From an uncultured Bacteroidaceae bacterium (GTDB taxonomy: Bacteria; Bacteroidota; Bacteroidia; Bacteroidales; Bacteroidaceae), in assembly GCA_944320785.1 (NCBI GenBank), contig CALUIR010000001.1, forward strand, positions 186,001 through 250,000: a stretch of 64,000 nt of DNA, read 5' to 3'. Position numbers and translations under genes: made by a program. The notes under the pieces were generated by a model. That model worked only from the letters and a program-made list of their open reading frames with translations. It did no database searches and was not told the DNA's origin. Shown piece by piece: positions 1 through 14,059 of the stretch. How positions within the stretch are numbered: position 1 is the first letter of the stretch; every line of letters begins with the position of its first letter.

Positions 1-435
1 ACCGTCATGCGGAACAATATCGTTCTGATGGAAAGGCGCTTCACAATTGGGAGACATTTCACAAATGACAAGTTCTCCATCTTGGGCAAGCAACGAACGG
101 ATTTTGGATAGTTCAGCCATTATATCTGCCACATGATGGAAGGAAAGGAAATAATAAATCAAGTCATAAGAACCGCCCATTGAATGAATGGTGCTGCAAG
201 CAACGGCAACCTGACGGTTGTGCCGCCACCGATGCCGTTGGCCGTCAACCACAGATTGCGAAACATCAATCAATGTCATCCTTTCACCAAGTGCGCACAT
301 GCAGGCAGCCGCAATCCCGTAACCGCACCCCACATCAAGGATACTGCGGTAAAGGAATGGATGATGCGCCTTTACTGCCTCATAAAACAATTGCCCCAAA
401 GCCTGCTGGCCGGTTGCCCAATTTACGATTCCCAT
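1..435 (-). CDS. class I SAM-dependent methyltransferase, 3' end cut by window edge
   Basis: The 145 visible residues form a Rossmann-type methyltransferase. Motif I reads LDVGCGYG at about residues 36-43, and DLIYYFLSFHHV at about residues 95-106 fits the strand after motif III of small-molecule or peptide methyltransferases. The C-terminus lies beyond position 1. ATG at 435 is 12 bp past the stop of the upstream peptidase. The same frame stays open for about 18 codons further and includes TTG codons, so a start that overlaps the peptidase is possible. It is the last visible gene of the radical SAM cluster, which suggests a tailoring role such as N-, O- or C-methylation of the peptide product. 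The substrate is not visible from sequence. The family is clear and the role is inferred. Confidence 0.8.
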   Translation of the reverse strand, partial: MGIVNWATGQQALGQLFYEAVKAHHPFLYRSILDVGCGYGIAAACMCALGERMTLIDVSQSVVDGQRHRWRHNRQVAVACSTIHSMGGSYDLIYYFLSFHHVADIMAELSKIRSLLAQDGELVICEMSPNCEAPFHQNDIVPHDG

Positions 436-446
436 CTTCAGATGCT

Positions 447-1499
447 TCAAAATGTCCAATCGGGCGGATTCACGGGAAAGTCCGCATCAAGATGAAGGAG
501 GAATGATTCCAACAACTTAATGCAAGAACCTATATCCTTCAAAGAGCATTGTTCGTAATGCGTATGCATGTATTTGCACGGAATGGAAATATCGGCCACG
601 GCTGTTCGAGGAGAAAACAATTGGATGCGCGAACTGTCCGTTCCTCCGGTTATATTACGCCCTACAGCCATCTGCAAAGGTATATCCGCCGTATGTGCAA
701 CGCTTTCCAACGCTTGGCGAAGCACAGGATTGCTGTCCGCATTGCGGTAAAGGACACTGCCATCACCCAACTTCGGCAAATGTTTCTTGTCCATTTGGCA
801 AGCATCTGTCACATCCACATTCAAACAAACAGCAGGCATTGTGTTTTGTGCAAGCACGGCCATTCCCCTCAACCCTATTTCTTCTTGCACAGTCGTTGCA
901 ACAGAAAGATGGACATGATGCAATTTGCCCGCCAAATGGCGGAACACTTGTGAAAGGACAAACACGCCCACCCGGTCGTCAACGGCTTTTGAAATGAGCG
1001 TATCTCCTATGACACGTGCATTGGGACTGAATGTGGCAACATCACCGAGACGCACCCACTGCATTGTTTCCTCCTTGCTTTGGCTGAAAATGTCAATGAA
1101 ACAATCATCCATGTCGGGAACGGCATTGTTGTTCCCCGCAGCGCGCGACACGACAATTCCCGGCCGGATGCCTTGAAATGTATGGATTTCCACCTCCTGC
1201 CCTATGGCATGCAAAAGAGCCATGCCTCCCAGTTTCCTTAGCCTCAACAATCCGTCATCACAATATCCTGTCACCTGCAGGCCAATTTCGTCAATGTGCG
1301 CAGAAAGCAGAATCCGATAATCCCCTCCGGCATTGGATGCAACAAGAGTGTTGCCTATCATGTCTGCCACCACTTCATCCGCACAAGCAGAAAGATATTG
1401 ACGGAAAAGCGCACTTGGCCGATGTTCATCCGAAGAAGCACCTGCCGCCTGCAATAATGCAAAAAGAAAATCTTTATCCATGCAATCCTTCCCCATCAT
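447..1499 (-). CDS. M42-family metallo-aminopeptidase
   Basis: 350 residues, the usual size for the M42 (tetrahedral aminopeptidase/FrvX) family of cytosolic two-metal peptidases. Visible motifs are LLSAHIDEIG (His68 and Asp70, metal ligand and catalytic support), KAVDDRVG (bridging Asp), TVQEEIGLRG (catalytic Glu-Glu pair) and a C-terminal GGTDSSRI with IPCKYMHTHYE, which supplies the last metal-ligand His region. The ATG overlaps the stop of the dehydrogenase gene as ATGA, so the two are probably translationally coupled. M42 enzymes trim peptides from the N-terminus. Inside a gene set with a peptide precursor and maturases, a plausible job is leader removal or degradation after other cleavage. 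That role is inference, since M42 genes also occur alone as housekeeping peptidases. Confidence 0.9.
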   Translation of the reverse strand: MMGKDCMDKDFLFALLQAAGASSDEHRPSALFRQYLSACADEVVADMIGNTLVASNAGGDYRILLSAHIDEIGLQVTGYCDDGLLRLRKLGGMALLHAIGQEVEIHTFQGIRPGIVVSRAAGNNNAVPDMDDCFIDIFSQSKEETMQWVRLGDVATFSPNARVIGDTLISKAVDDRVGVFVLSQVFRHLAGKLHHVHLSVATTVQEEIGLRGMAVLAQNTMPAVCLNVDVTDACQMDKKHLPKLGDGSVLYRNADSNPVLRQALESVAHTADIPLQMAVGRNITGGTDSSRIQLFSPRTAVADISIPCKYMHTHYEQCSLKDIGSCIKLLESFLLHLDADFPVNPPDWTF

Positions 1500-2221
1500 A
1501 ATATTCCCGCATTAATGTGGATCTTCTCACCCGTGATGCAATAACTTTTCTCACTTGTAAGATAATCAATCGTATTTACCACAGAATCCGTGTCAATGAG
1601 TTGCCCAAGGGCGGATATCGATTTCAATCCTTTTGTCAGCCGGTCGTTCACGGTGGAACGCATCCCTATATTCATCAGCCCAAGCACTACGGTATTTGAA
1701 CGGATGCCGAAGCGCCCATATTCATAAGCAGTGTCTTGCGAAAAGGTTTCAATGGCTGCTTTCGTGGCTCCTATCATCGAAAGGCCATAAAACGAACGGT
1801 GGGCGCATATCGATGAAACATGCACGATAATCCCTCGCGTCTTATGCCGCAGGAAATTGTTAATCACCATTTTCGTAACCACAATAGGCGCAACCGTGTT
1901 TATCATCACCATCTTTGCCATTTCTTCCGCTTGGATGCGATGGACAAGTTCCTTATAAAGAATTGCTGCATTGTTTATGAAAACATCTATCTTTTCCTCG
2001 CTTAGGTGAAGGGCTGCTTCCAAACGGCTCTCCATGCCGGACAAATTGCCCAAATCAAATGGACACCATTTCAAGGCACTGCCAAATTCATTCATAAGCA
2101 TTTCCAATTCATCGCTCATGGTACGGCTAAGCCCTATGACCCGGCATCCTTTCTGCAAATAATGCCCGGCAAGCTTCAAGCCCAATCCACGCGATATTCC
2201 TGTTATAAATACGGTCTTCAT
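1496..2221 (-). CDS. short-chain dehydrogenase/reductase without catalytic Tyr
   Basis: 241 residues from the ATG at 2221, which overlaps the upstream radical SAM stop as ATGA. Upstream codons in the same frame lie inside that gene. The Rossmann dinucleotide motif TGISRGLG (residues 7-14) and the NNAAIL structural motif (83-88) are intact. In the catalytic region the Ser of HVSS (about 137) and the Lys of GATK (154) are present. The position four residues before the Lys, normally the catalytic Tyr, is Ile150. A nearby Tyr145 is not at the canonical spacing. Classical oxidoreductase chemistry is therefore doubtful. It may be a non-catalytic NAD(P)-binding member, or it may use a shifted residue. 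The genetic context points to a tailoring or regulatory role in peptide maturation. Confidence 0.88.
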   Translation of the reverse strand: MKTVFITGISRGLGLKLAGHYLQKGCRVIGLSRTMSDELEMLMNEFGSALKWCPFDLGNLSGMESRLEAALHLSEEKIDVFINNAAILYKELVHRIQAEEMAKMVMINTVAPIVVTKMVINNFLRHKTRGIIVHVSSICAHRSFYGLSMIGATKAAIETFSQDTAYEYGRFGIRSNTVVLGLMNIGMRSTVNDRLTKGLKSISALGQLIDTDSVVNTIDYLTSEKSYCITGEKIHINAGIL

Positions 2222-3546
2222 GATTTTAGATTGTTTTGTTTCAGAAAATGGCAATACTCCCGCAAACCGCCTGCTCCTTCGGCTTTGCACCGTTCTTCCA
2301 AACGTTGCAACAACGTTTGGAGGATCATCCCTTTGGTAAACCGGCACACTTCATCAAGGTATTCCTCGTCATAGAGATCGTTCGGACACATGCAACCGCC
2401 CGCGCAATGCCATTTGGCAAAACACTTTTCACATTTTGCAAACGAATAGACATTGATGCCGTTGATGCGTTGGAACTTTTCTTCATCTATCTCTACCCCT
2501 TTCGCATCCACCTTGCCATAAACGCGTTGTGCATACATCTTTTCTTGCGGAGATGAGATGCAGTAACAAATGGAAAGGTCTCCTTGCGGTGTAAGTGTCA
2601 GCTTGCTGGGGCATCCTCTTGTCAAAAGAGAATCGACATTTTTAAAAATGCGGCAAGTGACATTCTTGCCCACCATTTGAGCCATATTCCTTGCTGCAAA
2701 AAAATGTTCCAAGTATTTGTCATAAAACAAGCCTAATTCCCCGGAAGTGGCAAACAATTCATTCGACACGACAGGTTCAAACACCATGTCTGTTATCTTC
2801 GGGAAACGTGTATCCATGAATTGGAACATTTCCGTCATGCGCTCCACGGTGTCCGGAGTAATCGTGGCATTCACCACCGGCACCAATCCGCTTCCGCAAA
2901 GTTTGTCAATCGTATTGCACACTTGGTTGAAATGCTTGCGGTACTTATTCTGTACTTCCTCAATGATGTCGAAAGAGATATTGGGAAGAACCTGGCAATC
3001 TTTCAGGCAACGGATAATGCCATCGTTCATGATAGACCCATTGGTCGTCAATGTCATCAGCAAGTTGAAGCCATGCCGCAAGGCCAATGCATGGGCATAA
3101 CGGATGCCATGCTCCACCAACGGCCACGACAAAAGAGGCTCTCCCCCTCCAATGAAAGAAAGACTGAGATGGCGTTCGCTCAAACGTTGCGGATTGATGA
3201 AATATTCCAAAGCTTTATCCAGCGTTTCTTGCGACAACGAAACGTTGCTCCTGCCTTTTGCCGAATAGCAATAAGAACAACTGAAATTGCAAGCATGGTT
3301 GGGCAGGACAGACATTTTCTGCAAATCGCCCGCCGCGTTCACTTTGCTCAATAAGCGGCTGGCATCGCCATCAACTACAAGTTCCGGCAATACATCCGGC
3401 AATTCTTCCAATCCTTCTTTATCGGCCACAAGCATTTTGCCTGCCAATGGGGAATAAACAAGGCAATATGCCTCATCTGCTGCTTCCAAATAAGAACCGA
3501 TAGGTATAAGGAATATGTTATTACGGTACAATATCTCTGTATTCAT
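2218..3546 (-). CDS. radical SAM/SPASM peptide maturase, fifth paralogue
   Basis: 442 residues. The radical SAM cluster motif CNFSCSYC has its ligands at Cys86, 90 and 93, followed by the GGGEPLLSW SAM-binding motif. The C-terminal half carries an auxiliary-cluster (SPASM-type) cysteine set: RGC, ICYC, KCEKC, WHCAGGCMC and a final EVC. An N-terminal domain of about 80 residues contains a YSPLAG motif shared with the four other copies in this locus and could bind the leader peptide. SPASM enzymes typically modify ribosomal peptides by thioether, C-C or epimerisation chemistry. Its ATG overlaps the stop of the 176-residue gene as ATGA. It is separated from the other four maturases by that gene. 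The reaction cannot be read from sequence. Confidence 0.9.
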   Translation of the reverse strand: MNTEILYRNNIFLIPIGSYLEAADEAYCLVYSPLAGKMLVADKEGLEELPDVLPELVVDGDASRLLSKVNAAGDLQKMSVLPNHACNFSCSYCYSAKGRSNVSLSQETLDKALEYFINPQRLSERHLSLSFIGGGEPLLSWPLVEHGIRYAHALALRHGFNLLMTLTTNGSIMNDGIIRCLKDCQVLPNISFDIIEEVQNKYRKHFNQVCNTIDKLCGSGLVPVVNATITPDTVERMTEMFQFMDTRFPKITDMVFEPVVSNELFATSGELGLFYDKYLEHFFAARNMAQMVGKNVTCRIFKNVDSLLTRGCPSKLTLTPQGDLSICYCISSPQEKMYAQRVYGKVDAKGVEIDEEKFQRINGINVYSFAKCEKCFAKWHCAGGCMCPNDLYDEEYLDEVCRFTKGMILQTLLQRLEERCKAEGAGGLREYCHFLKQNNLKS

Positions 3547-4073
3547 CCCTTGGTTGATTTAAAGTCCAAATATTCTTGTTTAATTTCCGCATCAGGCAAT
3601 GGATGATCTTTCCGAACCAAGATGAAAGCGTTTTCTTCAAACATTGCCACCGAACGCAAATTCCACTCCTCCAACAAAGGAGCAAAGAAATACCGGTAAA
3701 GCTTCAATTTGCGGGAAACACCCTTTCCGGTTTCATTGTCTTCGTAGCTTCCACTGATAACCATCGCGCTTTTAGAATCATCTTCCATAAAATGCCTGAC
3801 GAAGATGGCAAGGCAAGTCACAGCCAATCGGCGCATATTGACTGCAAAACCTTCCCTGCTGGTGAACCGGCGGAAGCAACGTTCATCATTTTCAAACATT
3901 CTCGGGAAAATGTCTGTAATATACAAATAATCACGGAAACGATAAGAACGGAAAATGTAATCCAGCACTTCTTGCCGGTTGACACAAGGCACCGTAAGGA
4001 CATAATCCACTGTTTCTTCAAACGGGAATTTTCCTTTCTCCTTCTTATCGAAACTGTATTCAAATAGCTGCAT
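3543..4073 (-). CDS. unknown 176-residue protein between radical SAM genes
   Basis: I do not recognise a family. ATG at 4073 is chosen because it lies 13 bp after the preceding radical SAM stop at 4087; a longer frame would run into that gene. The protein is soluble and charged, with no signal peptide or membrane segment. The C-terminal third (LKLYRYFFAPLLEEWNL, then AFILVRKDHP) has a strand-helix-strand feel that could fit a GNAT-like fold, but no acetyl-CoA motif is clear. It sits inside the maturase block and overlaps the next radical SAM gene by ATGA, so it is very likely part of the same pathway. Confidence 0.65.
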   Translation of the reverse strand: MQLFEYSFDKKEKGKFPFEETVDYVLTVPCVNRQEVLDYIFRSYRFRDYLYITDIFPRMFENDERCFRRFTSREGFAVNMRRLAVTCLAIFVRHFMEDDSKSAMVISGSYEDNETGKGVSRKLKLYRYFFAPLLEEWNLRSVAMFEENAFILVRKDHPLPDAEIKQEYLDFKSTKG

Positions 4074-4086
4074 ACGAAACAAACAA

Positions 4087-5391
4087 TTAAAGGTTTCCTG
4101 TATCTTCACGCAAAGCGTGCTGCAAACGACGGGTAAGAATCTCTTTTGTGAAACTTCTTGTCCAATCGCAAATGATGTCAAGCTGCTCTCGGTTGTAGAT
4201 AGATGCTTGCGCCAAACATCCCCCTCCGCAATGCCACTTCACGAAACATTGGGCGCAAGCTTCGCGGGCATTAATGTCGTGAGCAATCAAGCGAGAGAAA
4301 CGTGCGGCATCAAGATGAACCGTCCCATCCTCATCAACCTTCCCATAAACAAAATCTTCGTATCCAGGCTCTTTAGATGATGATTTCCGATGGCAAATGG
4401 TAATCGTCCCTTCCGGGGTAAGGCACATTTCACCCCCGCAATAATGTTCAATGAGCATGTCTGCATACTTAGAGGCGAGTACATACACATCTATGCCCAA
4501 ATCACGGCCTGTGGCCTCTGCTTGAAAGAAATAATGCGTGAAGTCCGCATAAAACATTTCCATCGTCTTCCGTTCGGAGAAAATATCCGGGTCTTCCACT
4601 ATCTGCAACTTATATTTCTTCACAAGAGGGAAAAGGCGATGCATTTCCATCACCATTTCATTCAAACGAAAGACATTGGCAGGTGTGATAATCGATTTTA
4701 TGGTTATATCCACTCCTGCATCCATGTATTTTGCAACGGTTTCCACCACTTTCCCGTAATGTTGCCTTTGTTGGTTCTGGATTTCTTCAAGCACCTCGAA
4801 TGAAACGCCAAGCGACACTGCATTCTCTACCATTACCCGTGCCAAGTTCTCATCATACAATGAGCCATTGGTTGTAAGCCCTATGCCCAAATTGAATCCT
4901 TGTTCTTTAGCCCGTCTCCGGGCATGGACAATAATTTCAGCCGTCAGTCCCGGAGAAAGGAAAGGTTCTCCGCCTCCCAAAATGGCAAGCCAAAGGTCTG
5001 TAAGCGAAGTGCGGTGTTTATCGATGAAATAATCAATCATGGCGATTGCTTTTTCACGCGTCAAAGTCTTATTTTGCCGTCCTTCTGAAGAATAGCAATA
5101 ACTGCATCTGAAGTTGCACCGATGCGTTGGCAAAATAGTAAGTTTGTGTATCTCGCTTGGAGAATGCTTTGCCGGTATAGTCCTGCGCCCTTTCCTTTCA
5201 TGATTGATATATGCGATAAGTTCTTCCGCTTCACGGTCTTCAGAAGATGTGGCCAGATGATTTTCCAATCGCTTCACTTCATCTGAAGCCATTGGCATCA
5301 TCAATCCTGAAAGCGGCGCATACACCAAGAAACCGTCCTCTAATGGCAACGGATAAATCTCTTGTTCATATAGATGGTGAAATTGAACCAT
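4087..5391 (-). CDS. radical SAM/SPASM peptide maturase, fourth paralogue
   Basis: 434 residues. The [4Fe-4S]-SAM motif CNFRCSYC lies at Cys92, 96 and 99, followed by a GGGEPFLSP SAM-contact motif. Auxiliary-cluster cysteines occur as HYCGGEMC, TICHRKS, REACAQC, WHCGGGC and a last IICDW. The N-terminal domain is about seven residues shorter than in the sister copies and carries VYAPLSG. The gene starts 4 bp after the upstream paralogue ends. The five copies look like products of old tandem duplication: the architecture is the same but the sequences are clearly diverged. This suggests each acts at a different site or step on the peptide. The specific chemistry is unknown. Confidence 0.9.
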   Translation of the reverse strand: MVQFHHLYEQEIYPLPLEDGFLVYAPLSGLMMPMASDEVKRLENHLATSSEDREAEELIAYINHERKGRRTIPAKHSPSEIHKLTILPTHRCNFRCSYCYSSEGRQNKTLTREKAIAMIDYFIDKHRTSLTDLWLAILGGGEPFLSPGLTAEIIVHARRRAKEQGFNLGIGLTTNGSLYDENLARVMVENAVSLGVSFEVLEEIQNQQRQHYGKVVETVAKYMDAGVDITIKSIITPANVFRLNEMVMEMHRLFPLVKKYKLQIVEDPDIFSERKTMEMFYADFTHYFFQAEATGRDLGIDVYVLASKYADMLIEHYCGGEMCLTPEGTITICHRKSSSKEPGYEDFVYGKVDEDGTVHLDAARFSRLIAHDINAREACAQCFVKWHCGGGCLAQASIYNREQLDIICDWTRSFTKEILTRRLQHALREDTGNL

Positions 5392-5395
5392 ATCG

Positions 5396-6742
5396 CTAAA
5401 TGTTTGTAATCCCTAAAAGTTGCCTGATGCTTTGACCTTGTTCTTTCTTAAAACTGGCATCCAACCGTTTAAGCAAGATTTCGGTTATTGCATAAGCCGT
5501 AAATCTGCACACAGCCTCAAATTGCTCCTCGTTGTAATTCATCCGGTACATCATGCATCCGCCTGCACAATGCCACCGGGCAATACAGGAATGGCATCGT
5601 GGAAGCAGGAAATTCTCCTTATCAATAAAAGACTTGAACTTGCCTGTATCAAAAGCCAACTGCCCGTTGCGAATCTCACCATACACGACTTTCTGATAAG
5701 CAGCCTCACGGGGCGAGGAGACACTATGGCAAATCGATATCTTCCCTTCCGGCGTAAGGCAAAGTTTTCCTTGGCAATAACGTGGAAAAAGCTTCTCTGC
5801 TTTACGCACCACATTGCAATCCAGCGTCATCCCGTATTTCTTGCACAACTCTTTGGCCTTAAAAAAATTATGAATGAACTTTTGGTAAAAAGCATCCAAC
5901 CTTTCTGAATCAGGGAAAATATCGCTGCTCATCGCCGGGTCAAAGTTGAGATGGCGGATGCCTGGATAAGAAGCAGCAACCGTATCTGCCATTTCCTCCA
6001 TCCTGTCCACATTCAAGCCGGTGATTACCGAACTAATATTAGGAACGATGCCCATGTCAAGCAAAAGCCGGATATTCTGTGACACTTTATGAAAGCTTCC
6101 CCGTTGGCTGTCCTGCACATCAGGCAAGATTTCGAATGACACCCCAACATTCACATCTTGCTCCTTCAATTCATGGGCGATATCGGAGGTAATAAGAGTA
6201 CCATTGGTCATCAGGAAGATGTCGAGTGTGAAGCCTTGCGCAACTGCTCTTTGCCGACTGTAGCCCAAAATGAACCTTAACTTTTCCCACGACAGAAGCG
6301 GCTCGCCTCCACCGGATATGAAGATTGACAAGTGACGGCTGCTTGTACGGCGGCAATCAATGAAGTAGTCAAGCATAATTTTAAGATGACTTTCATCTAT
6401 CTCCATTTTGGAACGACCTTTTGCCGAATAGCAATAAGCGCAAGACAAGTTGCAAGTAAGATTTGGAAGGATGGACAGGCGCGTAAATTGGGAAGGTTCT
6501 TCCACGATGCTGCTTCTGTAATCCTCCGAGTTTTCCTTCAACTGCGCCCAAAGTTCTTCCATTTCTTCGTCGTCTCCGTTCTCGACAAATGCTTCAAGAC
6601 GTTGCACCGTATCAGCATCTGCAAGGAAAAAGACTCCTGCAAGGGGCGCATAAACCAAAAAGACTTTCCCCTCTTCGATTCCATAATGGCGGGACAAGTC
6701 TGCCAATTGTATGTTATGGTCATTAAGATTCGGCACCTGCAT
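5396..6742 (-). CDS. radical SAM/SPASM peptide maturase, third paralogue
   Basis: 448 residues from ATG at 6742. This start puts the shared YSPLAG-type motif (VYAPLAG) at the same residue, about 31-36, as in three sister proteins. A further ATG at 6772 would add ten residues. The radical SAM motif CNLSCAYC is at Cys97, 101 and 104, with GGGEPLLSW after it. The C-terminal auxiliary-cluster set is RYCQGKLC, SICHSVS, PRCHSC, WHCAGGC and AVCRF. The gene overlaps the end of the preceding paralogue by 20 bp, so the two are probably translationally coupled. Role inferred: one of five maturases for the cluster's peptide. Confidence 0.9.
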   Translation of the reverse strand: MQVPNLNDHNIQLADLSRHYGIEEGKVFLVYAPLAGVFFLADADTVQRLEAFVENGDDEEMEELWAQLKENSEDYRSSIVEEPSQFTRLSILPNLTCNLSCAYCYSAKGRSKMEIDESHLKIMLDYFIDCRRTSSRHLSIFISGGGEPLLSWEKLRFILGYSRQRAVAQGFTLDIFLMTNGTLITSDIAHELKEQDVNVGVSFEILPDVQDSQRGSFHKVSQNIRLLLDMGIVPNISSVITGLNVDRMEEMADTVAASYPGIRHLNFDPAMSSDIFPDSERLDAFYQKFIHNFFKAKELCKKYGMTLDCNVVRKAEKLFPRYCQGKLCLTPEGKISICHSVSSPREAAYQKVVYGEIRNGQLAFDTGKFKSFIDKENFLLPRCHSCIARWHCAGGCMMYRMNYNEEQFEAVCRFTAYAITEILLKRLDASFKKEQGQSIRQLLGITNI

Positions 6743-8042
6743 GTTCCAAAATATTTTGTCCTGCCATTTCATTCAGCAATGCCACTAATGAGAACTTCTG
6801 CTGAAAACGGCACATTGTTTCGAGCATTTCCTTAGAATACGTTTTCGCATGATAAAGGCAACCACCGGCACAATGCCATTTCAGGAAACATCGGTGGCAT
6901 TTTTCCTGCTTGTTGTCGCTTGCCTCTACCAAACGACGGAATTTCCCAGTGTCAAACACAACTGTTCCATCCTCCACACGTCCATAAACGAAATCAGGAT
7001 AAAGCGTTTCCTTGGGCGACGACACAAAAAAGCACATGCTCAGTGTCCCTTGCGGAGTGAGGTCAAAACCTCCGGCGCAAGCCCTCATCTTGATTTGCTC
7101 CAAATTGTGGTATTTAATACTGCTTACACATAGGCCAAACTCTTTCCCGATTCCCTTTGCCTGAAAAAAATGCAACGTGTAATCATCATAAAAAGATTGC
7201 AGTTCTTCTGCTGTCTGAAAAAGATTGCCATCCACAACATAATCAAAACTCAATCGTTTCAATTTCGGGAAACGACAATGGACCTCTCTTACCATCTCCT
7301 CTTGCCTCATCACATTAAAGGGGGTGATGACAGAATTGATAGTAGGAATAATGCCGTGTTCAAGCAAAGTGTCAAGTGTTTGGCACACCTTAGCATAATG
7401 CTTCCTTTGCACATTTTGGACATCTTCCAAAATATCAAAAGAAATATTCGTTTTTATATTATATCTTTGAATAAATTCTATGATTTCATCATTCATGACC
7501 GAACCATTCGAAGCAAAGGAATAATGCATTGTAAAGCCTTGGCGGCCTGCCAACTCCTCTGCATGCAAAATTGCCATTCGCACTTTGCTCCACGACAACA
7601 GCGGCTCTCCTCCTCCGCCAAAAGAAACATAAAGATGCCGCCTCTTTGTCCGCCGGGCATCAATAAAGAAATCAAGGACAGCACGCAGCGTGCCTTCATC
7701 CAATTCATCATGCCCATGCCCCTTCGCTGCATAACAATAACTACAAGAGAAATTGCAGATATTGTTAGGCAAGACAGTCAGCGCATAAACCTCGCCAGGA
7801 CTGTTGACATAATTAGGAACCGGCTTTTCCTGTTCATTCACAAGGCACTGCATTTCCGCATCCAAGAAATGCCCGTTTGTTTCCAGTTCTTCTTTAAGAC
7901 GCGACAGTTCATTCTCGTCCACAGGAACAATATGATGAGACAAGGGAGAATAGATGATGTATGATGATTGTGCATACGGCAAAAAATCAGCCACACGCAC
8001 CGGGAAAAGATTCCTTTGATAAAACAAGTCCAAATCGGCCAT
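6723..8042 (-). CDS. radical SAM/SPASM peptide maturase, second paralogue
   Basis: 439 residues. The core motif CNFSCSYC is at Cys96, 100 and 103. SAM-binding GGGEPLLSW follows. The auxiliary cysteines are MRACAGG, SMCFF, EKCHRC, WHCAGGC and TMCRF. Compared with its sisters, one cysteine of the first auxiliary pair (xxCxGxxxC) is replaced (ACAGGFDL), so cluster ligation may differ. The N-terminal IIYSPLSH motif aligns with YSPLAG in the others. The start codon follows the stop of the upstream paralogue with no spacing, which points to tight translational coupling within the maturase block. Confidence 0.9.
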   Translation of the reverse strand: MADLDLFYQRNLFPVRVADFLPYAQSSYIIYSPLSHHIVPVDENELSRLKEELETNGHFLDAEMQCLVNEQEKPVPNYVNSPGEVYALTVLPNNICNFSCSYCYAAKGHGHDELDEGTLRAVLDFFIDARRTKRRHLYVSFGGGGEPLLSWSKVRMAILHAEELAGRQGFTMHYSFASNGSVMNDEIIEFIQRYNIKTNISFDILEDVQNVQRKHYAKVCQTLDTLLEHGIIPTINSVITPFNVMRQEEMVREVHCRFPKLKRLSFDYVVDGNLFQTAEELQSFYDDYTLHFFQAKGIGKEFGLCVSSIKYHNLEQIKMRACAGGFDLTPQGTLSMCFFVSSPKETLYPDFVYGRVEDGTVVFDTGKFRRLVEASDNKQEKCHRCFLKWHCAGGCLYHAKTYSKEMLETMCRFQQKFSLVALLNEMAGQNILEHAGAES

Positions 8043-9410
8043 TTATATGCTCTCCACCGCTTCTTTTAATGACATGTTGCAATATTTCCGATATTCCTTG
8101 TCAAGGTTGCGCAACAACATCCGTTTGCAGAAATTGCGCATGTACCGGCAAATTTCATCACGAATAGCTTGATTGTAGGTATGCTTGTGTACCATGCAAC
8201 CTCCTGCACAATGCCATTTGGCCCAACATGACGAACATTGCGGGTAATGGTAAACATTTAGGCCAATAAGATGGTTGAACTTTTCACGGTCAATCTCCAC
8301 ACTTCCATCCAAATTCACCTTGCCATAAATGCTTGCACTGTAACCCGCATCCGCAGGTGCGCCCACACGGCTGCATACACTAATCTCACCGTACGCTGTA
8401 AGCGTATTATCGCCCGGGCAAAAACGCTGGATAAGCAAATTAAAGTTACGGTAAGCTGAACAGTCCAGCAAAAGGCCGTGTTGGGCAGCATAATCATGGG
8501 CTTCAAAAAAGTTATCGATATATTGCTCGTAAAAGGCTCTCACATCAAGAGGATCTGTCATCCTTTCCGGGTCGGTAACATATTCCATCATCACTTCACG
8601 CGTCCCGGGAAACTTCTCAAGCACTTCTTCAATCATGCGTTTCATCAACGATATGTTGTCTTTCGTGATGCATGCGCGAAGCTGGGGACGGATGCCTTCT
8701 GAGATAATCCAACGAATGTTTTCGCTCACCTTTTCATAATGGCCTCGTTGAAGGTTTTGAATATCCTCTAAAATTTCAAATGAAATCGATACCGGTATCT
8801 TGTATTTTTTAATCACATCGATCATCTCTTGGGTAAAGATGGAACCGTTGGTCACGATATTGATATCTATGCCACGGAATCCCATTTGCATGACCCGCTC
8901 ATTCGAGTATTCAATGATAAAGCGGACCAAATCCCACGACAACAAGGGTTCGCCTCCGCCCAAGATAGATATGGCCAGTTTATTGTCAGCACTTACCCGC
9001 TTATTATCCACAAAATGGTCCAAGGCGGCTTTCAGCAATTCTTTGGTGATAACTTTGCCGGAACGCCCATGTGCCGAATAACAATAACTGCATTTGAAGT
9101 TGCATACATTATTGGGCAAGACAGCCATCCGGGTATACTTGTCAGGGTCTTCCGCAAGAGGCGCAGGCTTTTTGCGGTTCTCAAAGTCGGTGAGCGCATC
9201 CATTGCCTCTACAACGTCTTCAGGCAAAGTTTTTCTATTCTCCGGATGCAACAGGTATTGTTCCATGGGCTGGAGATATGCTTGTTTCACCAAGATAGCT
9301 TTGTCAGTCAAAGGAGAATAAACAAGGCTGAGTTCATCCGGCATCTTCCCGAACTCGTCTCCTACCGGTATAGGGAATATATCATTCTCAATTAATTTAG
9401 CATACTGCAT
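8043..9410 (-). CDS. radical SAM/SPASM peptide maturase, first paralogue
   Basis: 455 residues, the first radical SAM gene after the precursor in the direction of transcription. CNFKCSYC lies at Cys103, 107 and 110, and GGGEPLLSW follows. The auxiliary-cluster cysteines are RFCPGDN, SVCSRV, PQCSSC, WHCAGGC and EICRY. The N-terminal domain contains LVYSPLTD. It starts 4 bp after the two-TM membrane gene, so the membrane protein and maturases are presumably made together. Like the others it is a cytosolic SPASM-type enzyme. Which bond it makes on the Cys-rich peptide cannot be told from sequence. Confidence 0.9.
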   Translation of the reverse strand: MQYAKLIENDIFPIPVGDEFGKMPDELSLVYSPLTDKAILVKQAYLQPMEQYLLHPENRKTLPEDVVEAMDALTDFENRKKPAPLAEDPDKYTRMAVLPNNVCNFKCSYCYSAHGRSGKVITKELLKAALDHFVDNKRVSADNKLAISILGGGEPLLSWDLVRFIIEYSNERVMQMGFRGIDINIVTNGSIFTQEMIDVIKKYKIPVSISFEILEDIQNLQRGHYEKVSENIRWIISEGIRPQLRACITKDNISLMKRMIEEVLEKFPGTREVMMEYVTDPERMTDPLDVRAFYEQYIDNFFEAHDYAAQHGLLLDCSAYRNFNLLIQRFCPGDNTLTAYGEISVCSRVGAPADAGYSASIYGKVNLDGSVEIDREKFNHLIGLNVYHYPQCSSCWAKWHCAGGCMVHKHTYNQAIRDEICRYMRNFCKRMLLRNLDKEYRKYCNMSLKEAVESI

Positions 9411-9414
9411 GACA

Positions 9415-10125
9415 CTATTGTTTTAAGTTCATATTCTTTAATCCACAGCTATTGAGCAACCGATGGATTTCGTTCTCGATTTTATTGTTTGATTCAAATT
9501 CAGATTTTCCTTGGTACATATCATTATTCAAAATACTGGAGATATGGAACAGTTCCTCGGACAACACCACCGAGAAACAAAACAACCTATTGTTCACCTC
9601 GACAGACCTTTGATGCCCGCTTTGCAGGATTTCGCTTTGGTAAACATCTCTGATTTTCAATTCACGATACTTATTAAAGATATTCGACACACAAGCCATT
9701 ACATTCAAAAATGTTTCATCTTCCATGTGCATACGCAAATAACCAAATTGAAAGATCAATGAACTAAGCGATGTGACATTCTCATAAGCTTTTTTGTCAT
9801 TTCCCCTCAGGCTTCTCTGAAGCATCGTGGCAATGATGTTTCCCAATTCTTCCAAGAACGCATAATAGGTTTCCTGCTTCTTCTCAAATTGCCTCATATG
9901 CCTTTCCTTGGAACTTTCCACCTCTGTTTGCCGGTTCAGCAGGATTGCTGTCACTGCAATCGTTATCAACATGCCAACAAAAGCGCTCAAAATAGCAACA
10001 ACGCCATCCGAAGTTTTCTCGGAAGGTATTGACAAACTATCTGCATAGACAATGACTAACGATAGCAACATTACCATTATCAGAATAACGCTCCACGAAA
10101 TGGCGCTTCGGTTGATGAAAAACAT
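9415..10125 (-). CDS. two-TM membrane protein with cytoplasmic helical domain, unknown
   Basis: 236 residues. There are two hydrophobic segments near the N-terminus (about residues 11-28 and 43-64), separated by a short loop. A long charged, mostly helical region follows (KERHMRQFEKKQETYY and onward) without recognisable catalytic motifs. The arrangement resembles bacterial membrane anchors with a cytosolic helical domain. It is the first gene after the terminator that follows the precursor, and lies 4 bp upstream of the first radical SAM gene. Possible roles are tethering the maturase assembly at the inner membrane, or immunity. Both are guesses from context. I do not recognise the family. 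Confidence 0.7.
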   Translation of the reverse strand: MFFINRSAISWSVILIMVMLLSLVIVYADSLSIPSEKTSDGVVAILSAFVGMLITIAVTAILLNRQTEVESSKERHMRQFEKKQETYYAFLEELGNIIATMLQRSLRGNDKKAYENVTSLSSLIFQFGYLRMHMEDETFLNVMACVSNIFNKYRELKIRDVYQSEILQSGHQRSVEVNNRLFCFSVVLSEELFHISSILNNDMYQGKSEFESNNKIENEIHRLLNSCGLKNMNLKQ

Positions 10126-10153
10126 TCCTTCAAATTTTTAAAGTGAAAACAAA

Positions 10154-10194
10154 GAGGGGGAAGTATCCGCGCCTTAAAACGCAGATACCCCCTC
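10154..10194 (-). terminator. intrinsic terminator/attenuator after the precursor gene
   Basis: On the minus strand a 7-bp GAGGGGG/CCCCCTC stem (10188-10194 with 10154-10160) is extended inward by TATC/GATA and GCG/CGC pairs with a small bulge, capped by TTTTAAGG, and followed by TTTGTTTT. It starts 8 bp after the precursor stop and ends 28 bp before the next start codon. Partial read-through would make far more precursor than maturase, a common RiPP arrangement. Confidence 0.85.
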
Positions 10195-10201
10195 CATCAG
10201 A

Positions 10202-10291
10202 TTAGTTGTTGCATTGGCAACCGCCGCATTGGTCACAGCAACCATATGCGTTCGTGTTAGTGTCTTTTACTTTGAAAACTTTTGTCAACAT
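10202..10291 (-). CDS. 29-residue Cys-rich putative RiPP precursor peptide
   Basis: The reading frame runs from ATG at 10291 to TAA at 10202 and encodes 29 residues. The N-terminal half (residues 1-16, MLTKVFKVKDTNTNAY) looks like a short leader and the C-terminal half holds five cysteines: GCCDQCGGCQCNN, with Cys at 18, 19, 22, 25 and 27. It lies between the SH3 gene and the maturase block in the same orientation and is followed directly by a strong terminator, as expected for an abundantly expressed precursor. Five Cys alongside five radical SAM/SPASM genes suggests thioether or related crosslinks. The C-terminal residue is Asn, as in the MccA substrate of the ThiF-like enzyme MccB. No family match could be checked. 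Translation is inferred from context, composition and frame. Confidence 0.75.
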   Translation of the reverse strand: MLTKVFKVKDTNTNAYGCCDQCGGCQCNN

Positions 10292-10348
10292 AGCAATTTC
10301 ACTTTAACATTAGTTCCTACTCTGTTAGGGCTTTTCGGAATCCGCCTT

Positions 10349-11053
10349 TTATCTTTCTTCCTTTTTCTTCAAATAATCCGCACTTGCGTATGCCTCCGCG
10401 CCATTGTACTTAATCTTGGCAAATCCATTGGCCATGCCATACACCTCCACAGCATCACCGAATTTCAAACTTCCTACCACCTCTGCGTTAAGGTCAGGCG
10501 CAGAACGTACATTCAGGGAAGACCTTGCCGTGCAATAATACAATGTAGTTTGAGGCGCAGCCGTTTCCGTTTTCACAGACCATGGACGCTCAGGCAAGGC
10601 GCTCACGCCGGCAAATATTCCCACGACTGCCAATGCAATCAGGAAAGTTGTGCCGGAATAAAATATGTAACGGATAATCGCAAGAAGAATATTGCTTATC
10701 CATGTAAAGATGCCGACCACAATCATGGCGGCATAATAGACGATTCCCCCTAAAAGGATGCCTGCCACAATTCCCCAAAACAAGCCCAACGATATCAGCC
10801 ATATAAGGAAAGATATGCCCATGCCTGCCAACAGCACAATGGAAAAGATGCTCGTGATTCTTTCCGAATAATCTGCAAACCAGTTTCCTATATTGCCGAT
10901 AAAGCTGTCAAAGCGGTTCCAAACCGTTCTCCGATAAACGTGAGTTCCTGTGTTATGGCTGATGGGAATAGGGCCGGGGCCAAGAGGAGTCCGTATCTCC
11001 CCTTGCTCCATGTCAATGCTGATGCCGCTCGGCAATCTTATCATCTTAGCCAT
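10349..11053 (-). CDS. membrane protein with C-terminal bacterial SH3 domain
   Basis: 234 residues from ATG at 11053, which is 14 bp after the ThiF gene stop; an earlier start would overlap that gene. The N-terminal 75 residues are soluble. A hydrophobic block of about 90 residues (roughly 75-170) follows and could form three to four membrane spans. The C-terminal segment (about 175-230) is an SH3b-type domain with the typical LNVRSAPDLNAEVVG start and an AYASADYLK end. SH3b domains often bind peptides or peptidoglycan. It ends 57 bp before the precursor peptide. In this setting it could hold or export the product, or recruit the conjugation enzymes to the membrane. This is inference. Confidence 0.8.
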   Translation of the reverse strand: MAKMIRLPSGISIDMEQGEIRTPLGPGPIPISHNTGTHVYRRTVWNRFDSFIGNIGNWFADYSERITSIFSIVLLAGMGISFLIWLISLGLFWGIVAGILLGGIVYYAAMIVVGIFTWISNILLAIIRYIFYSGTTFLIALAVVGIFAGVSALPERPWSVKTETAAPQTTLYYCTARSSLNVRSAPDLNAEVVGSLKFGDAVEVYGMANGFAKIKYNGAEAYASADYLKKKEER

Positions 11054-11067
11054 AACCGTAGTACTTG

Positions 11068-12303
11068 TCAATAATTCCTGCATTCGTGGCAATCGCAACT
11101 CTTTGGGAATTTCACGCCATACCACTGCAATATGGTCGGCTTTTTCCGCCCCGGATTATGATTGAACGGCGCCCAATTGGCAAAATGCAATTCACGGCGG
11201 TTGGCCCACATGTAGAAATCATAATCCAATTCCTTGTCCAGTGTCGTGATCAGGCATTCCGTTCCTCTCGACAATTCCTGAATGGCCAATTTGACGACCA
11301 TCGTGTTGATAGGAGCGATGTCGGTAGACAAACCGACTTGCACCATGGCATCCGCATCTTCTTCTGAAGTGTAAGCAGGAATCACACCTGTTTCCCGCGC
11401 CCTGCGCAAATCTGTGATTTCTTCCTCTTGCGTGTACCACTGGCTTCCCTTCAAGCAAGCATAACAAGGTCCTCCGGGACGCACCCTCAACACATCTCCG
11501 CCTTCTGCACGGGTGACAGCCCGCCCGAACAGTCCCGTTTTCTTATGTTTTATAATCAAAGAGTTCAACAGATATCTGCTGGGAAGGCTGTCTGTAGCTG
11601 CTATCACCAAATCTGTTCCCGACACAAGCTGTTCTATCAAAGGAATATCCTTCATGATGTCAACAGGATGCGTGCTGATATTGGCATAAGGATTCTTGCC
11701 CAAGATGGCATCACGGACAATGTTTGTTTTCAATCGTCCCAATTCATTGACTCCGGCAATATGACGGGCAATGTTATGCAACTCCAAACGGTCGAAGTCC
11801 ACTAACGCAAAATTGCCGACTCCTGCCTTGGCCAGTTCCACGGCTATCGTTGCACCTCCGCTGCCCAACCCCACAATCAGCACATGCCTCTTTTCCAACG
11901 CCCCAACTTCAATCAGGCCTTTGCTGCGCGTATAAAGGTTGCTCTTGTCAGGCACATATTCAATCCGGACGCAACGGGCTGAATCATTGGGTACAAATGC
12001 GCGCTTCAGCAGCCGCCCGTTCTCCATGCAAAAGACAACCACCATGCCTAACCGCGCCATGGACGCGTCTTGGTTCATCAGATTTCCCGCAAAACATTCG
12101 GCATTTTCGTAATCTGCCTTGCAGGCTGCCTTCAAGAACAGGCAAGCCACTGCATAGCCGGAAGGGGCTATTTGCGGATATTCCAAATAAGCATGGTACA
12201 CGTCTTCCCCTTTCCATTCATAGGCAACCCCCAATTGGGAACCGGCAGAAGAATTGACGAACTTCTGTATCTGGTATTGGTAAAGGTAGAGCAGGCTTTC
12301 CAT
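11068..12303 (-). CDS. ThiF/E1-like adenylyltransferase
   Basis: 411 residues. The Rossmann ATP-binding motif VGLGSGG (144-150), the VDFDRLELHNIARH segment (Asp169 and Asp171 with following Arg) and the GRLKTN Lys region mark a ThiF/MoeB/E1-type enzyme, which adenylates the C-terminus of a small protein or peptide. A zinc site is likely from CYAC (280-283) and CHEC (405-408) near the end. The N-terminal ~135 residues are an extra domain that I do not recognise. E1 enzymes in bacteria act in sulfur transfer, ubiquitin-like conjugation, or MccB-type peptide adenylation. With E2-like and JAB genes upstream and a tiny peptide downstream, either conjugation or peptide C-terminal activation is possible. 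It begins 12 bp after the 67-residue gene. Confidence 0.9.
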   Translation of the reverse strand: MESLLYLYQYQIQKFVNSSAGSQLGVAYEWKGEDVYHAYLEYPQIAPSGYAVACLFLKAACKADYENAECFAGNLMNQDASMARLGMVVVFCMENGRLLKRAFVPNDSARCVRIEYVPDKSNLYTRSKGLIEVGALEKRHVLIVGLGSGGATIAVELAKAGVGNFALVDFDRLELHNIARHIAGVNELGRLKTNIVRDAILGKNPYANISTHPVDIMKDIPLIEQLVSGTDLVIAATDSLPSRYLLNSLIIKHKKTGLFGRAVTRAEGGDVLRVRPGGPCYACLKGSQWYTQEEEITDLRRARETGVIPAYTSEEDADAMVQVGLSTDIAPINTMVVKLAIQELSRGTECLITTLDKELDYDFYMWANRRELHFANWAPFNHNPGRKKPTILQWYGVKFPKSCDCHECRNY

Positions 12304-12315
12304 GTCAAGGCATGT

Positions 12316-12519
12316 TTACAATAATGTATAATAGTCTTTCTTTGCGATTTCAGTGGCCTTGATGCCGTCCACTTTATCAACTTGGGAAGCCGGGACAGCC
12401 ACCAATTCCCCGTCATCATTCATGACTAATTCAACACCGCGATTGCCATCATGCTGGTCTTTGATGACTTGGCTCACATCCGTGCAGTCATCTGCTTGGT
12501 TTTTCTTGAAGAAGCTCAT
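12316..12519 (-). CDS. 67-residue acidic protein, possible ubiquitin-like or carrier partner
   Basis: A small acidic protein (MSFFKKNQADDCTD start, DYYTLL end) placed between the E2-like and E1-like genes, 12 bp from the latter. That is the position of the ubiquitin-like modifier in several bacterial E1/E2/JAB operons. The centre (VELVMNDDGELVAVP) could form a beta hairpin, but 67 residues is short for a full beta-grasp fold and there is no C-terminal Gly-Gly. It might be a minimal modifier, a scaffold or a second peptide substrate. Coding is supported by tight spacing and frame. Function is unknown. Confidence 0.6.
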   Translation of the reverse strand: MSFFKKNQADDCTDVSQVIKDQHDGNRGVELVMNDDGELVAVPASQVDKVDGIKATEIAKKDYYTLL

Positions 12520-12557
12520 CGAAATATCTTTTTAATGTTCAACAATCTCAAAGGCAT

Positions 12558-12980
12558 TCATCCCGCTGCCGTCGTCAAATATTTATCAAGCGGATAACCG
12601 GTCTTCAAATGATTCTCATAGACCTCAAGCCACACCCTGACCTTGACAACCACTTGATAAAGGTAAACGCCCGGATGCCATTGGGATGCCCCATAATGGC
12701 AAATGCGCGTGCATCCGTTCTCGCCGCCCAAAGTGTGCATGGGATGGCTTGCATCCAACATCGGATTCCCGGAACGGTCCAACAAAGGTTTCGGGTTTGT
12801 GATGAACACTTTAGGCACTTCATACGGATGATTGGCCAAATCTATCCTCACGGTATAAATCTTTTTGGAATTGGTTTGAAGCGCAATGGTCAACGTATTG
12901 CTCGTCAACTTGAACTGCTTGACTGAAAATGCTTGCGAAAGCAAGTAAAATTCGTCTTTTAATCGTTCTTCTGTCATCAT
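12558..12980 (-). CDS. E2-like (ubiquitin-conjugating fold) protein
   Basis: 140 residues. The pattern of strands with HPYEVPKVFI (51-60), then ASHPMHTLGGENGCTRIC with Cys90 and Cys94, then QWHPGVYLYQVVVKVRVWLEVYENHLKTG, resembles bacterial E2-like families that accompany E1 and JAB genes: a strand-turn with Pro, a His-containing approach to a catalytic Cys, then the long helix. Cys90 or Cys94 would be the thioester-forming residue. The ATG overlaps the JAB gene stop (ATGA). Assignment is by motif pattern and gene neighbourhood, not by alignment. An inactive UEV-like role cannot be ruled out. Confidence 0.7.
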   Translation of the reverse strand: MMTEERLKDEFYLLSQAFSVKQFKLTSNTLTIALQTNSKKIYTVRIDLANHPYEVPKVFITNPKPLLDRSGNPMLDASHPMHTLGGENGCTRICHYGASQWHPGVYLYQVVVKVRVWLEVYENHLKTGYPLDKYLTTAAG

Positions 12981-13900
12981 AGCCTGATGGATTTAAAGTA
13001 ATGAATAAATGCTTCTGACAGGCTCATCCCTTCTGTCGTCCATTCCGGGACAAAGCTGCATTGGGGCTTCTTGCTTTTGAGGGCCAAAAGTTTGGGCGCC
13101 TCCTTCGGGAAAGCCGCACCGAAAACGAATTTGTAAGGAACCATTGAATCCATGATGCGCACTTCCACCGTAGCATCATCAACCTGGAAGATGGAAACGG
13201 CATCAAACTCTGCTTTCAGGAACTTGACAATAGCGGCAAATTCCTTCCGGTTCTCCGCAACAGACAACCAATAGCCAGGTGCAAACACAGGCCGTTCCTG
13301 CCGGCCCAGCTGTCCGTCGTCTGCCAACTTGCAGGCATCGAGCGGCATCATGCAGGGTTCGCCCGACGGCTCATACACCAAATCGCCATGCATGTTGTCG
13401 TATGTCTTGCGGAACGGGCTGTCGCCATCCAGCACAACCCACTTCAATTTCACATAATATCCTTTGCTATCATAGCGGAAAGCATTGACCGTGGATTTCC
13501 CATGACGGTAATTGCCTATCAGCAAAATGAAACTCGGAAGATGGCATTCTTTCATGCCGGACAACGTGGAATCAGTATCACCGCTGCTGGGTTCGGCCAA
13601 GCCCAACGAATGATGCGAATGCCACGAACCAATATGATGCAAGGCATGCTCTTTCACCAGATAGTCCGCATTTTTATCCAAGAATGCGAAATCCTGCCTG
13701 AAATGCGTTGGCTCATGCACCGCTTTCGGGCCAGGCCCTACCACATAATGAATGAACGGGATGCCAAAAGGTGTCCACAGCCCGAACAAGTTCCCGCCTG
13801 TTTCCCTGCGTGGCGATTCCAAAATGCACTTGGAAAGATAATCCAATTCACTCTGGTAGGTGATGATTTTCCCTGTGTTCGTCATACCGGCATCCGACAT
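12977..13900 (-). CDS. JAB/JAMM metallopeptidase with C-terminal E2/RWD-like extension
   Basis: 307 residues from ATG at 13900. An in-frame TTG at 13954 would add 18 residues, and another ATG lies at 13885. The JAMM zinc motif is complete: Glu33 in RRETGGN, then HSH (His94 and His96) and SSGD (Ser105 and Asp108), i.e. HxHx8SxxD. JAMM enzymes cut isopeptide or peptide bonds after ubiquitin-like proteins. The C-terminal ~90 residues (VSIFQVDDATVEVRI, YKFVFGAAFPKEAPKL) look like an E2/RWD-type alpha/beta domain without an obvious catalytic Cys. It is the first gene of the operon. In this cluster it could process the small protein or the modified peptide. Confidence 0.85.
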   Translation of the reverse strand: MSDAGMTNTGKIITYQSELDYLSKCILESPRRETGGNLFGLWTPFGIPFIHYVVGPGPKAVHEPTHFRQDFAFLDKNADYLVKEHALHHIGSWHSHHSLGLAEPSSGDTDSTLSGMKECHLPSFILLIGNYRHGKSTVNAFRYDSKGYYVKLKWVVLDGDSPFRKTYDNMHGDLVYEPSGEPCMMPLDACKLADDGQLGRQERPVFAPGYWLSVAENRKEFAAIVKFLKAEFDAVSIFQVDDATVEVRIMDSMVPYKFVFGAAFPKEAPKLLALKSKKPQCSFVPEWTTEGMSLSEAFIHYFKSIRL

Positions 13901-13996
13901 TGTTTCTATCCTTATCCATGCACCTATGATTGCCGTTTTGCCATAAATCCGCAATAATCTTTATTTTATCTGCGGGAAATGCCATTATTCATATCA

Positions 13997-14059
13997 TAGT
14001 TTTGCAAGTTTCTCGAACTTTTAGTAAATTGTATGCATTTACGCTCTAATGCAAAACTA
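13997..14059. repeat. 10-bp perfect inverted repeat around the cluster's leader region
   Basis: TAGTTTTGCA at 13997-14006 is the exact reverse complement of TGCAAAACTA at 14050-14059. Each arm contains a TAnnTTTG box, pointing inward toward each other. In the minus-strand transcript the arms could partly pair across a 43-nt loop, or they could be two operator half-sites. Confidence 0.5.
14051..14059 (-). promoter_or_regulatory. Bacteroidetes -7 box for the E1/E2/JAB-RiPP operon
   Basis: The minus strand reads TAGTTTTGC, a match to the Bacteroidetes -7 consensus TAnnTTTG. It leaves a leader of roughly 145 nt before ATG 13900. A good -33 TTTG is not evident (TTTATTTTC lies in that area). It is the only well-matched box between metH and the cluster. 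Confidence 0.55.

Follow-up and report, generated by a model that had tools for sequence, protein, structure and literature searches.

Does a gene set for making a modified peptide work together with the conjugation genes that it directly follows? The question is raised by a 64,000-nucleotide stretch from an uncultured gut bacterium of the Bacteroidaceae (contig CALUIR010000001.1, positions 186,001 to 250,000), the whole of which we call the window, where a row of genes occupies positions 1-13954 of the minus strand (all window coordinates below refer to this strand). Read in the sense of transcription, the row encodes a JAB peptidase, an E2, a 67-amino-acid protein, an E1, an SH3 membrane protein, a 29-residue peptide (the 29-mer) and a second membrane protein, followed by four radical S-adenosylmethionine (SAM) enzymes of the SPASM type, a 212-amino-acid protein, a fifth SPASM enzyme, a short-chain dehydrogenase (SDR), an M42 peptidase and a methyltransferase; neighbouring genes overlap or stand short gaps apart. 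We refer to the E1/E2/JAB gene set as the core, and to the genes of the ribosomally synthesised and post-translationally modified peptide (RiPP), namely the precursor, the radical SAM enzymes and their partners, as the cassette. The names given to these genes in a preliminary description agree with our Pfam, NCBIfam, PADLOC and structure results, and every gene that it listed is present, although the 212-amino-acid protein was missing from its list.

We find two separable modules with a real, unexplained association, a description carried directly by gene content, conservation, intact catalytic residues, a predicted E2 fold, repeated linkage and enrichment in core genomes. The RiPP module and the conjugation core are likely to be coupled, in a way that we infer. 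The fuller reading, that they are two modules in one operon-like row on an exchanged island, coupled most probably via the SH3 membrane protein, has in our judgement about an even chance of being right; its weakest step, the passage of the coupling through the SH3 protein, is put forward tentatively.

A conserved precursor and its radical SAM enzymes

The putative RiPP precursor gene (10202..10291) encodes the 29-residue peptide MLTKVFKVKDTNTNAYGCCDQCGGCQCNN. Precursors of this type adjoin matching radical SAM enzymes in six further genomes (e.g. ...GCCDHCGGCQCNN) besides G001, the sister of the source genome and the only genome of the same genus that was reached (G and L numbers denote genomes and loci). 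The seven precursor loci are those of the window, G336, G063, L036, G804, G790 and G633, and the conserved core pattern of the precursor is G-CCDxCGGCxC-NN; four of the seven (window, G063, G336 and G804) end C-N-N, and that of G790 ends C-K-D. These counterparts rule out a chance open reading frame (ORF), and a lack of conservation of the 29-mer, part of what the preliminary description would have taken as refutation, is not what we see. When the window was compared with G063, G804 and G336, synonymous and replacing changes among the changed core codons stood at 7:1, 3:1 and 2:2, respectively.

The five SPASM enzymes are rS1 (8043..9410), rS2 (6723..8042), rS3 (5396..6772), rS4 (4087..5391) and rS5 (2218..3546), and between the last two lies p213, the conserved 212-amino-acid protein without a Pfam match (3543..4181, with its true start probably within these limits). 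The precursors of G063 (MITKVVKVKETKKNAHGCCDHCGGCQCNN) and G336 (MITVVFKVKTVKKGVYACCDHCGGCKCNN) stand beside the best matches of rS1, rS2, rS4, rS5 and p213, which are 34-51% identical to the window proteins, and G336 additionally has an SDR; in G063 p213 forms one protein with the counterpart of rS4, and in G336 and G804 it stands alone. G804 carries MITEVFQVKDTQVNAYGCCDHCGGCQCNN with four enzymes, p213, an SDR and an M42 peptidase, G790 a related precursor with six enzymes, and L036 and G633 related precursors with two enzymes, a B12-type radical SAM enzyme and an M42 peptidase (the names in G633 were assigned by eye). A short conserved precursor thus adjoins conserved SPASM maturases, as RiPP pathways are recognised, and the earlier proposal that the 29-mer and the radical SAM enzymes belong to one peptide-maturation pathway is borne out by the matching sets of G063, G336 and G804 and the related ones of G790, L036 and G633.

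Within NCBIfam the partial best matches of the five enzymes are PapB, SCIFF and Nif11 maturases, the best score among them being 116.5 of 340 bits (PapB), and among the best 25 families per enzyme none of the named ranthipeptide or sactipeptide maturases reaches its curated cut-off; the best PDB match is 5wgg. Because 5wgg and the PapB and SCIFF profiles represent the nearest families, the five enzymes would act on the 29-mer by cross-linking, probably forming thioether or similar bonds at its cysteines. The M42 aminopeptidase (447..1499), a candidate leader trimmer, would then cut off the leader, and the SDR (1496..2347, true start probably about 126 bases 3' of the GTG) and the methyltransferase (1..459; 198 amino acids in all, completed beyond the window edge in L021) would tailor the peptide. 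Beyond the window the row goes on with proteins of 204 and 387 amino acids, neither with a Pfam match, and a DUF1963 protein.

A terminator-like hairpin stands right behind the precursor gene (10159..10192; -27.8 kcal/mol, z -5.9), and when the bases following the precursor stop codon were examined a strong hairpin was found in all seven loci (z -4.0 to -6.3), with differing sequences; it may leave the enzyme genes less transcribed than the precursor gene. The next gene encodes a membrane protein of 236 amino acids with hydrophobic segments at its N-terminus (9415..10125), and no recognisable likeness was seen between the membrane proteins of different cassettes. Pfam scans of the row proteins gave no ABC transporter or C39 peptidase, the cassettes of other genomes being judged by eye. 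As the row yielded no exporter and the peptide core is conserved, the product probably acts inside the cell and would be nearer to a cofactor or metal ligand than to a bacteriocin.

Ranthipeptide/SCIFF-type RiPPs (with CteB, PapB or Nif11-like maturases) are alike in having a short Cys-rich precursor beside a SPASM enzyme, but here all five enzymes fall far under the family cut-offs, there are 4-6 paralogues per 29-mer-type precursor in five genomes, and p213 and SDR partners are present. A stand-alone cluster of other make occurs in G217 (L121, G217:C23), where an M42 peptidase and two SPASM-like enzymes accompany four differing Cys-rich precursor candidates in series. A 2023 survey of Bacteroidales RiPPs reports many radical SAM areas, and the word ThiF is absent from its text (PMC10352776); the open subset of PubMed Central held no paper that brings together radical SAM RiPPs and E1/E2/JAB genes (what came up was a paper on tRNA modification and the 2006 survey of operon types cited below), and no match to the peptide strings.

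An E1/E2/JAB core with a small protein of its own

The core comprises a JAB/JAMM isopeptidase of 325 amino acids (12977..13954, true start probably 3' of the TTG), whose C-terminal domain may be RWD/UEV-like (a weak match only), an E2 of 140 amino acids with a UBC fold and catalytic residues C94 and H82 (12558..12980), the 67-amino-acid protein p67 (12316..12519), a candidate conjugated modifier with the C-terminus KKDYYTLL, and a ThiF-type E1 of 411 amino acids (11068..12303), in which C280, C283, C405 and C408 resemble zinc ligands. It is followed by a membrane protein with a C-terminal bacterial SH3 domain (10349..11125, true start probably about 70 bases 3' of the GTG). The E1, the E2 with its catalytic cysteine and the JAMM isopeptidase stand together in one row with their catalytic residues intact, and they are homologous to Cap2 and Cap3 of type II cyclic oligonucleotide-based antiphage signalling systems (CBASS), whose E1 and E2 are the nearest relatives both by PADLOC profile and by E2 fold. 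The window E1 is also related to MccB (E 4e-16, with Foldseek matches too), and BubCD ranks first by E-value in Foldseek with the E1 model. By sequence the E2 had no convincing match in the PDB, and the Foldseek match by itself was weak (FANCL, 0.023).

A search for cores gave 68 loci, of which 46 were kept and 22 (L072-L093) dropped as partial generic ThiF matches. A small protein belongs to 45 of the 46, with or without RiPP genes, and none was found in L054. It has 56-162 amino acids and a hairpin-like stretch LVFxPxTGEFxxV; p67 itself had no Pfam, NCBIfam or PADLOC match. The motif G-[FYW]-A occurs at or near its end in 36 of the 46 loci by hand count (31 stand-alone, four fused to E1 and one an inner repeat). 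When ORFs were chosen by C-terminal pattern the tail motif was found in 32 of 40, after removal of two out-of-frame rows from 42, a figure that leans high because the pattern was the means of choosing. The small protein is fused in frame to the N-terminus of E1 in L032, L049, L052 and L071, and a model of the L049 fusion shows the region corresponding to p67 as a helix plus one hairpin, at moderate confidence. Between the E2 and E1 genes of L055 lies a 103-amino-acid, tandem-like small protein whose first unit ends GFA and whose second ends IFGG.

CBASS Cap2 links its cGAS/DncV-like nucleotidyltransferase (CD-NTase) to targets via a C-terminal Gly or Ala and no ubiquitin fold, as is reported (PMC10097602). 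Because such a tail suffices for Cap2, the small protein is the likely conjugated species, and our analysis points to p67 as what E1 and E2 likely activate. The conjugation module would then work like Cap2/Cap3 with p67 replacing the nucleotidyltransferase: JAB would trim p67, E1 would adenylate its C-terminus, C94 of E2 would take it over as a thioester and join it to a target, and JAB would reverse the joining. A further motif, [YF]N..TGxF, stands at the N-termini of core proteins in 19 of 231 cases near E1 versus 1 of 564 elsewhere, a lead only, as the pattern was chosen after viewing the sequences. The form [YF][ND]xxTGx[FLIW] starts membrane or other proteins of the core rows L031, L035, L037, L040, L044, L049, L051-L056, L060-L063, L067 and L071 and lies within the small protein too; it could possibly be a docking or target tag.

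CBASS proper was rejected because no SMODS CD-NTase was found: SMODS (PF18144) had no match in the source genome (84% complete), one of 22 core genomes searched, the source genome included, had a match (somewhere in G819), and Pfam gave no CD-NTase among the row proteins. Unlike type II CBASS Cap2/Cap3 and CdnG-E2 systems, the present loci have E1 and E2 as separate genes, a small protein in place of the SMODS CD-NTase that the source genome lacks, an SH3 membrane protein, often a ClpA-like ATPase, and in some cases a RiPP cassette. The likeness to the bacterial operon types 6a-6e and to Bub systems lies in the combination of E1, E2 and JAB genes; the five types described by Iyer et al. (2006; PMC1779556, section 14) have neither this combination of genes nor radical SAM genes. 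Bub/Bil and 6d/6e types have a beta-grasp ubiquitin-like protein in the operon; p67 has no family match. Each half looks like a new variant. On the RiPP side a conserved 29-mer is accompanied by 4-6 paralogous radical SAM enzymes, and the row yielded no exporter; on the conjugation side stands a CBASS-like E1/E2/JAB set whose modifier, it seems, is a small protein other than ubiquitin, naturally fused to E1 in four loci.

Among the other cores, L040 has a radical SAM gene between its E1 and ClpA-like genes (L040:12474-13541), with no RiPP precursor noticed, and in L037 and L042, cores of another type, the genes behind encode large proteins that look from their sequence like dynamin-type GTPases. 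A locus on a Bradyrhizobium plasmid (L122, NZ_CP088281.1 249799-256169) encodes a JAB protein, a 155-amino-acid protein, a ThiF protein that aligns with 71% of the window E1 at 38% identity, and products with a double-stranded DNA nuclease domain and a TIR domain; judged by its genes, it is possibly a proteobacterial relative in a defence-like context.

Linkage of cassette and core

RiPP genes stand directly behind the SH3 gene, with a short ORF first, in the window, G001 (L026), L027, L028 and L036. The L027 cassette has one SPASM-like and one B12 radical SAM enzyme and an M42 peptidase, and that of L028 three SPASM-like enzymes, one B12 radical SAM enzyme, a YcaO protein and an M42 peptidase; the two share a second, different precursor candidate, ...DVSE..A-W...HP..D (aligned by eye). 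A cassette in cis was seen in four of the 17 SH3-type loci that show at least 1.5 kb beyond the SH3 gene. The E1 tree places the window, L026, L027 and L028 in one clade (100/100) and L036 elsewhere, with L035 and L041, neither of which has a cassette. These two places were read by eye off the drawn tree, the label count having compared eight labelled rows only, and may reflect two gains, or one gain with losses.

Three core genomes, G063, G790 (of L030) and G804 (of L044), also have a 29-mer-type cassette, on a separate contig, and G806 (of L046) carries a weaker cassette relative. An enzyme profile built from the five window enzymes and two of L036 matched four of 393 order genomes, the source genome, G063, G217 and G336 (cut-off 1e-60, at most four candidates scored per genome); runs on core genomes, family genomes and a 60-genome control used 1e-40, and all matches of the core-genome run also pass 1e-60. 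The profile matched five of 46 core genomes versus two of 389 core-less order genomes (Fisher 1.9e-4), and three of 44 versus two of 389 with the two seed genomes of the profile excluded (Fisher 0.0085). Further controls gave one of 395 core-less family genomes and none of 60 fully scored order genomes. All five core-genome matches have SH3-type cores (5/19, versus 0/27 for the others, p 0.0085; 3/17 without the seeds, p 0.051), G063 lying outside this set.

The row looks to be sited on a recently exchanged island, as the preliminary description had suspected. Between about -4.0 kb and 14.0 kb the block is 97-100% identical to G001 (500-base bins; 91% and 95% in the edge bins), compared with 86-91% on the metH side and 72-93% on the far side, and its GC content is 41-49% versus 54-58% for metH. 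The 29-mer is identical in G001, which by itself says little. About 4.6-8.3 kb outside the first base of the window lie two adjacent DNA-methylase-like genes (L021:10702-14383, G000:C1), with an HNH-like gene on the opposite strand beside them, the names being read from sequence; this stretch looks like a separate insertion because nothing in the part of G001 compared matches it.

Several observations weigh against coupling of the two modules. A cassette in cis was found in four of the 46 core loci (29 of which show at least 8 kb past E1), so that the predicted recurrence beside the core holds for the window with G001, L027, L028 and L036 but not for most loci. Three cassettes (G217, G336 and G633) lie in genomes without a core match. 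Of the two things that the preliminary description would have taken together as refutation, one, the occurrence of the modules apart, is therefore seen. The L027 and L028 cassettes differ from that of the window in enzymes and precursor and are missed by the profile. The trans cases come from a handful of draft genomes whose core contigs are small (L030 5.1 kb, L044 9.6 kb); G063 has a core contig of 4.2 kb, 4% contamination, and behind E1 another membrane protein that is not of the SH3 type. The co-occurrence controls are not matched for habitat, and the first matches were already known when the tests were designed. As to the parts, over the whole 29-mer gene the synonymous to replacing counts against G063, G804 and G336 are 11:7, 10:6 and 7:11, and the four SPASM enzymes of G804 face 5 cysteines and the two of L036 face 6, so a rule of one radical SAM enzyme per cysteine fails. 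A universal Gly/Ala ending of the small protein fails as well: in the window and its three nearest relatives it ends in DYY plus 1-3 residues, and because of this tail the modifier step is weaker there. The junction in the AlphaFold model of the L049 fusion has a predicted local distance difference test score below 50.

Rival readings of the association

A potential explanation that would not need to invoke joint function is that the two are mobile modules sharing island hot spots and gut Bacteroidota hosts, and so accidental neighbours. Each module also occurs alone, the block looks recently exchanged, a relaxase-like gene (by eye) lies upstream of the G011 core, the distant Bradyrhizobium relative is on a conjugative plasmid, and the controls were not habitat-matched. 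However, the cassette takes the same place, after the SH3 gene and with a short precursor-like ORF first, in five cis loci, it does so at two places of the E1 tree with differing enzyme sets, the enrichment extends to trans, and within the 46 core genomes the matches fall on SH3-type cores alone (not so in G063, outside the set). We regard accidental neighbourhood as possible, though not probable.

It is unlikely, in our view, that the row is an immune system in which the core regulates phage defence in the manner of CBASS, with the cross-linked peptide or the SH3 partner as the growth-stopping effector. The nearness of the E1 and E2 to those of CBASS, the nuclease-domain and TIR-domain genes beside the plasmid relative and the dynamin-like GTPase candidates of other cores (read from sequences) are consistent with it, but no SMODS CD-NTase was found in the source genome, the RiPP cassette exists without a core too, and the link to phages is scant, since phages and viral contigs gave weak partial ThiF matches only (one phage record and one viral contig).

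The preliminary description had E1 act on the 29-mer, and that the matured peptide is itself activated at its C-terminus by E1, attached to a protein by E2 and released by JAB is very unlikely: MccB, to which the E1 is related, adenylates a short peptide, four of seven precursors end C-N-N and the precursor is right behind the core in the window, G001 and L036, but C-N-N persists in G336, a genome without a core match, G790 has a core yet ends C-K-D, the cassettes of G063, G336, G804, G790 and G633 do not adjoin a core, and the cores own a small protein (45/46) even without RiPP genes nearby.

We return to two coupled modules, with p67 as the likely substrate of E1. A special form of this coupling, which we consider quite unlikely, is that the cross-linked five-cysteine peptide is a cargo or acceptor of E1/E2, joined for example to p67 or to the SH3 protein and removable by JAB; if true, a peptide made by radical SAM enzymes would be a reversible protein modification. 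More generally, the gene row is a small, testable gene set, and the repeated meeting of its modules, if functional, would join peptide natural-product chemistry to ubiquitin-like signalling.

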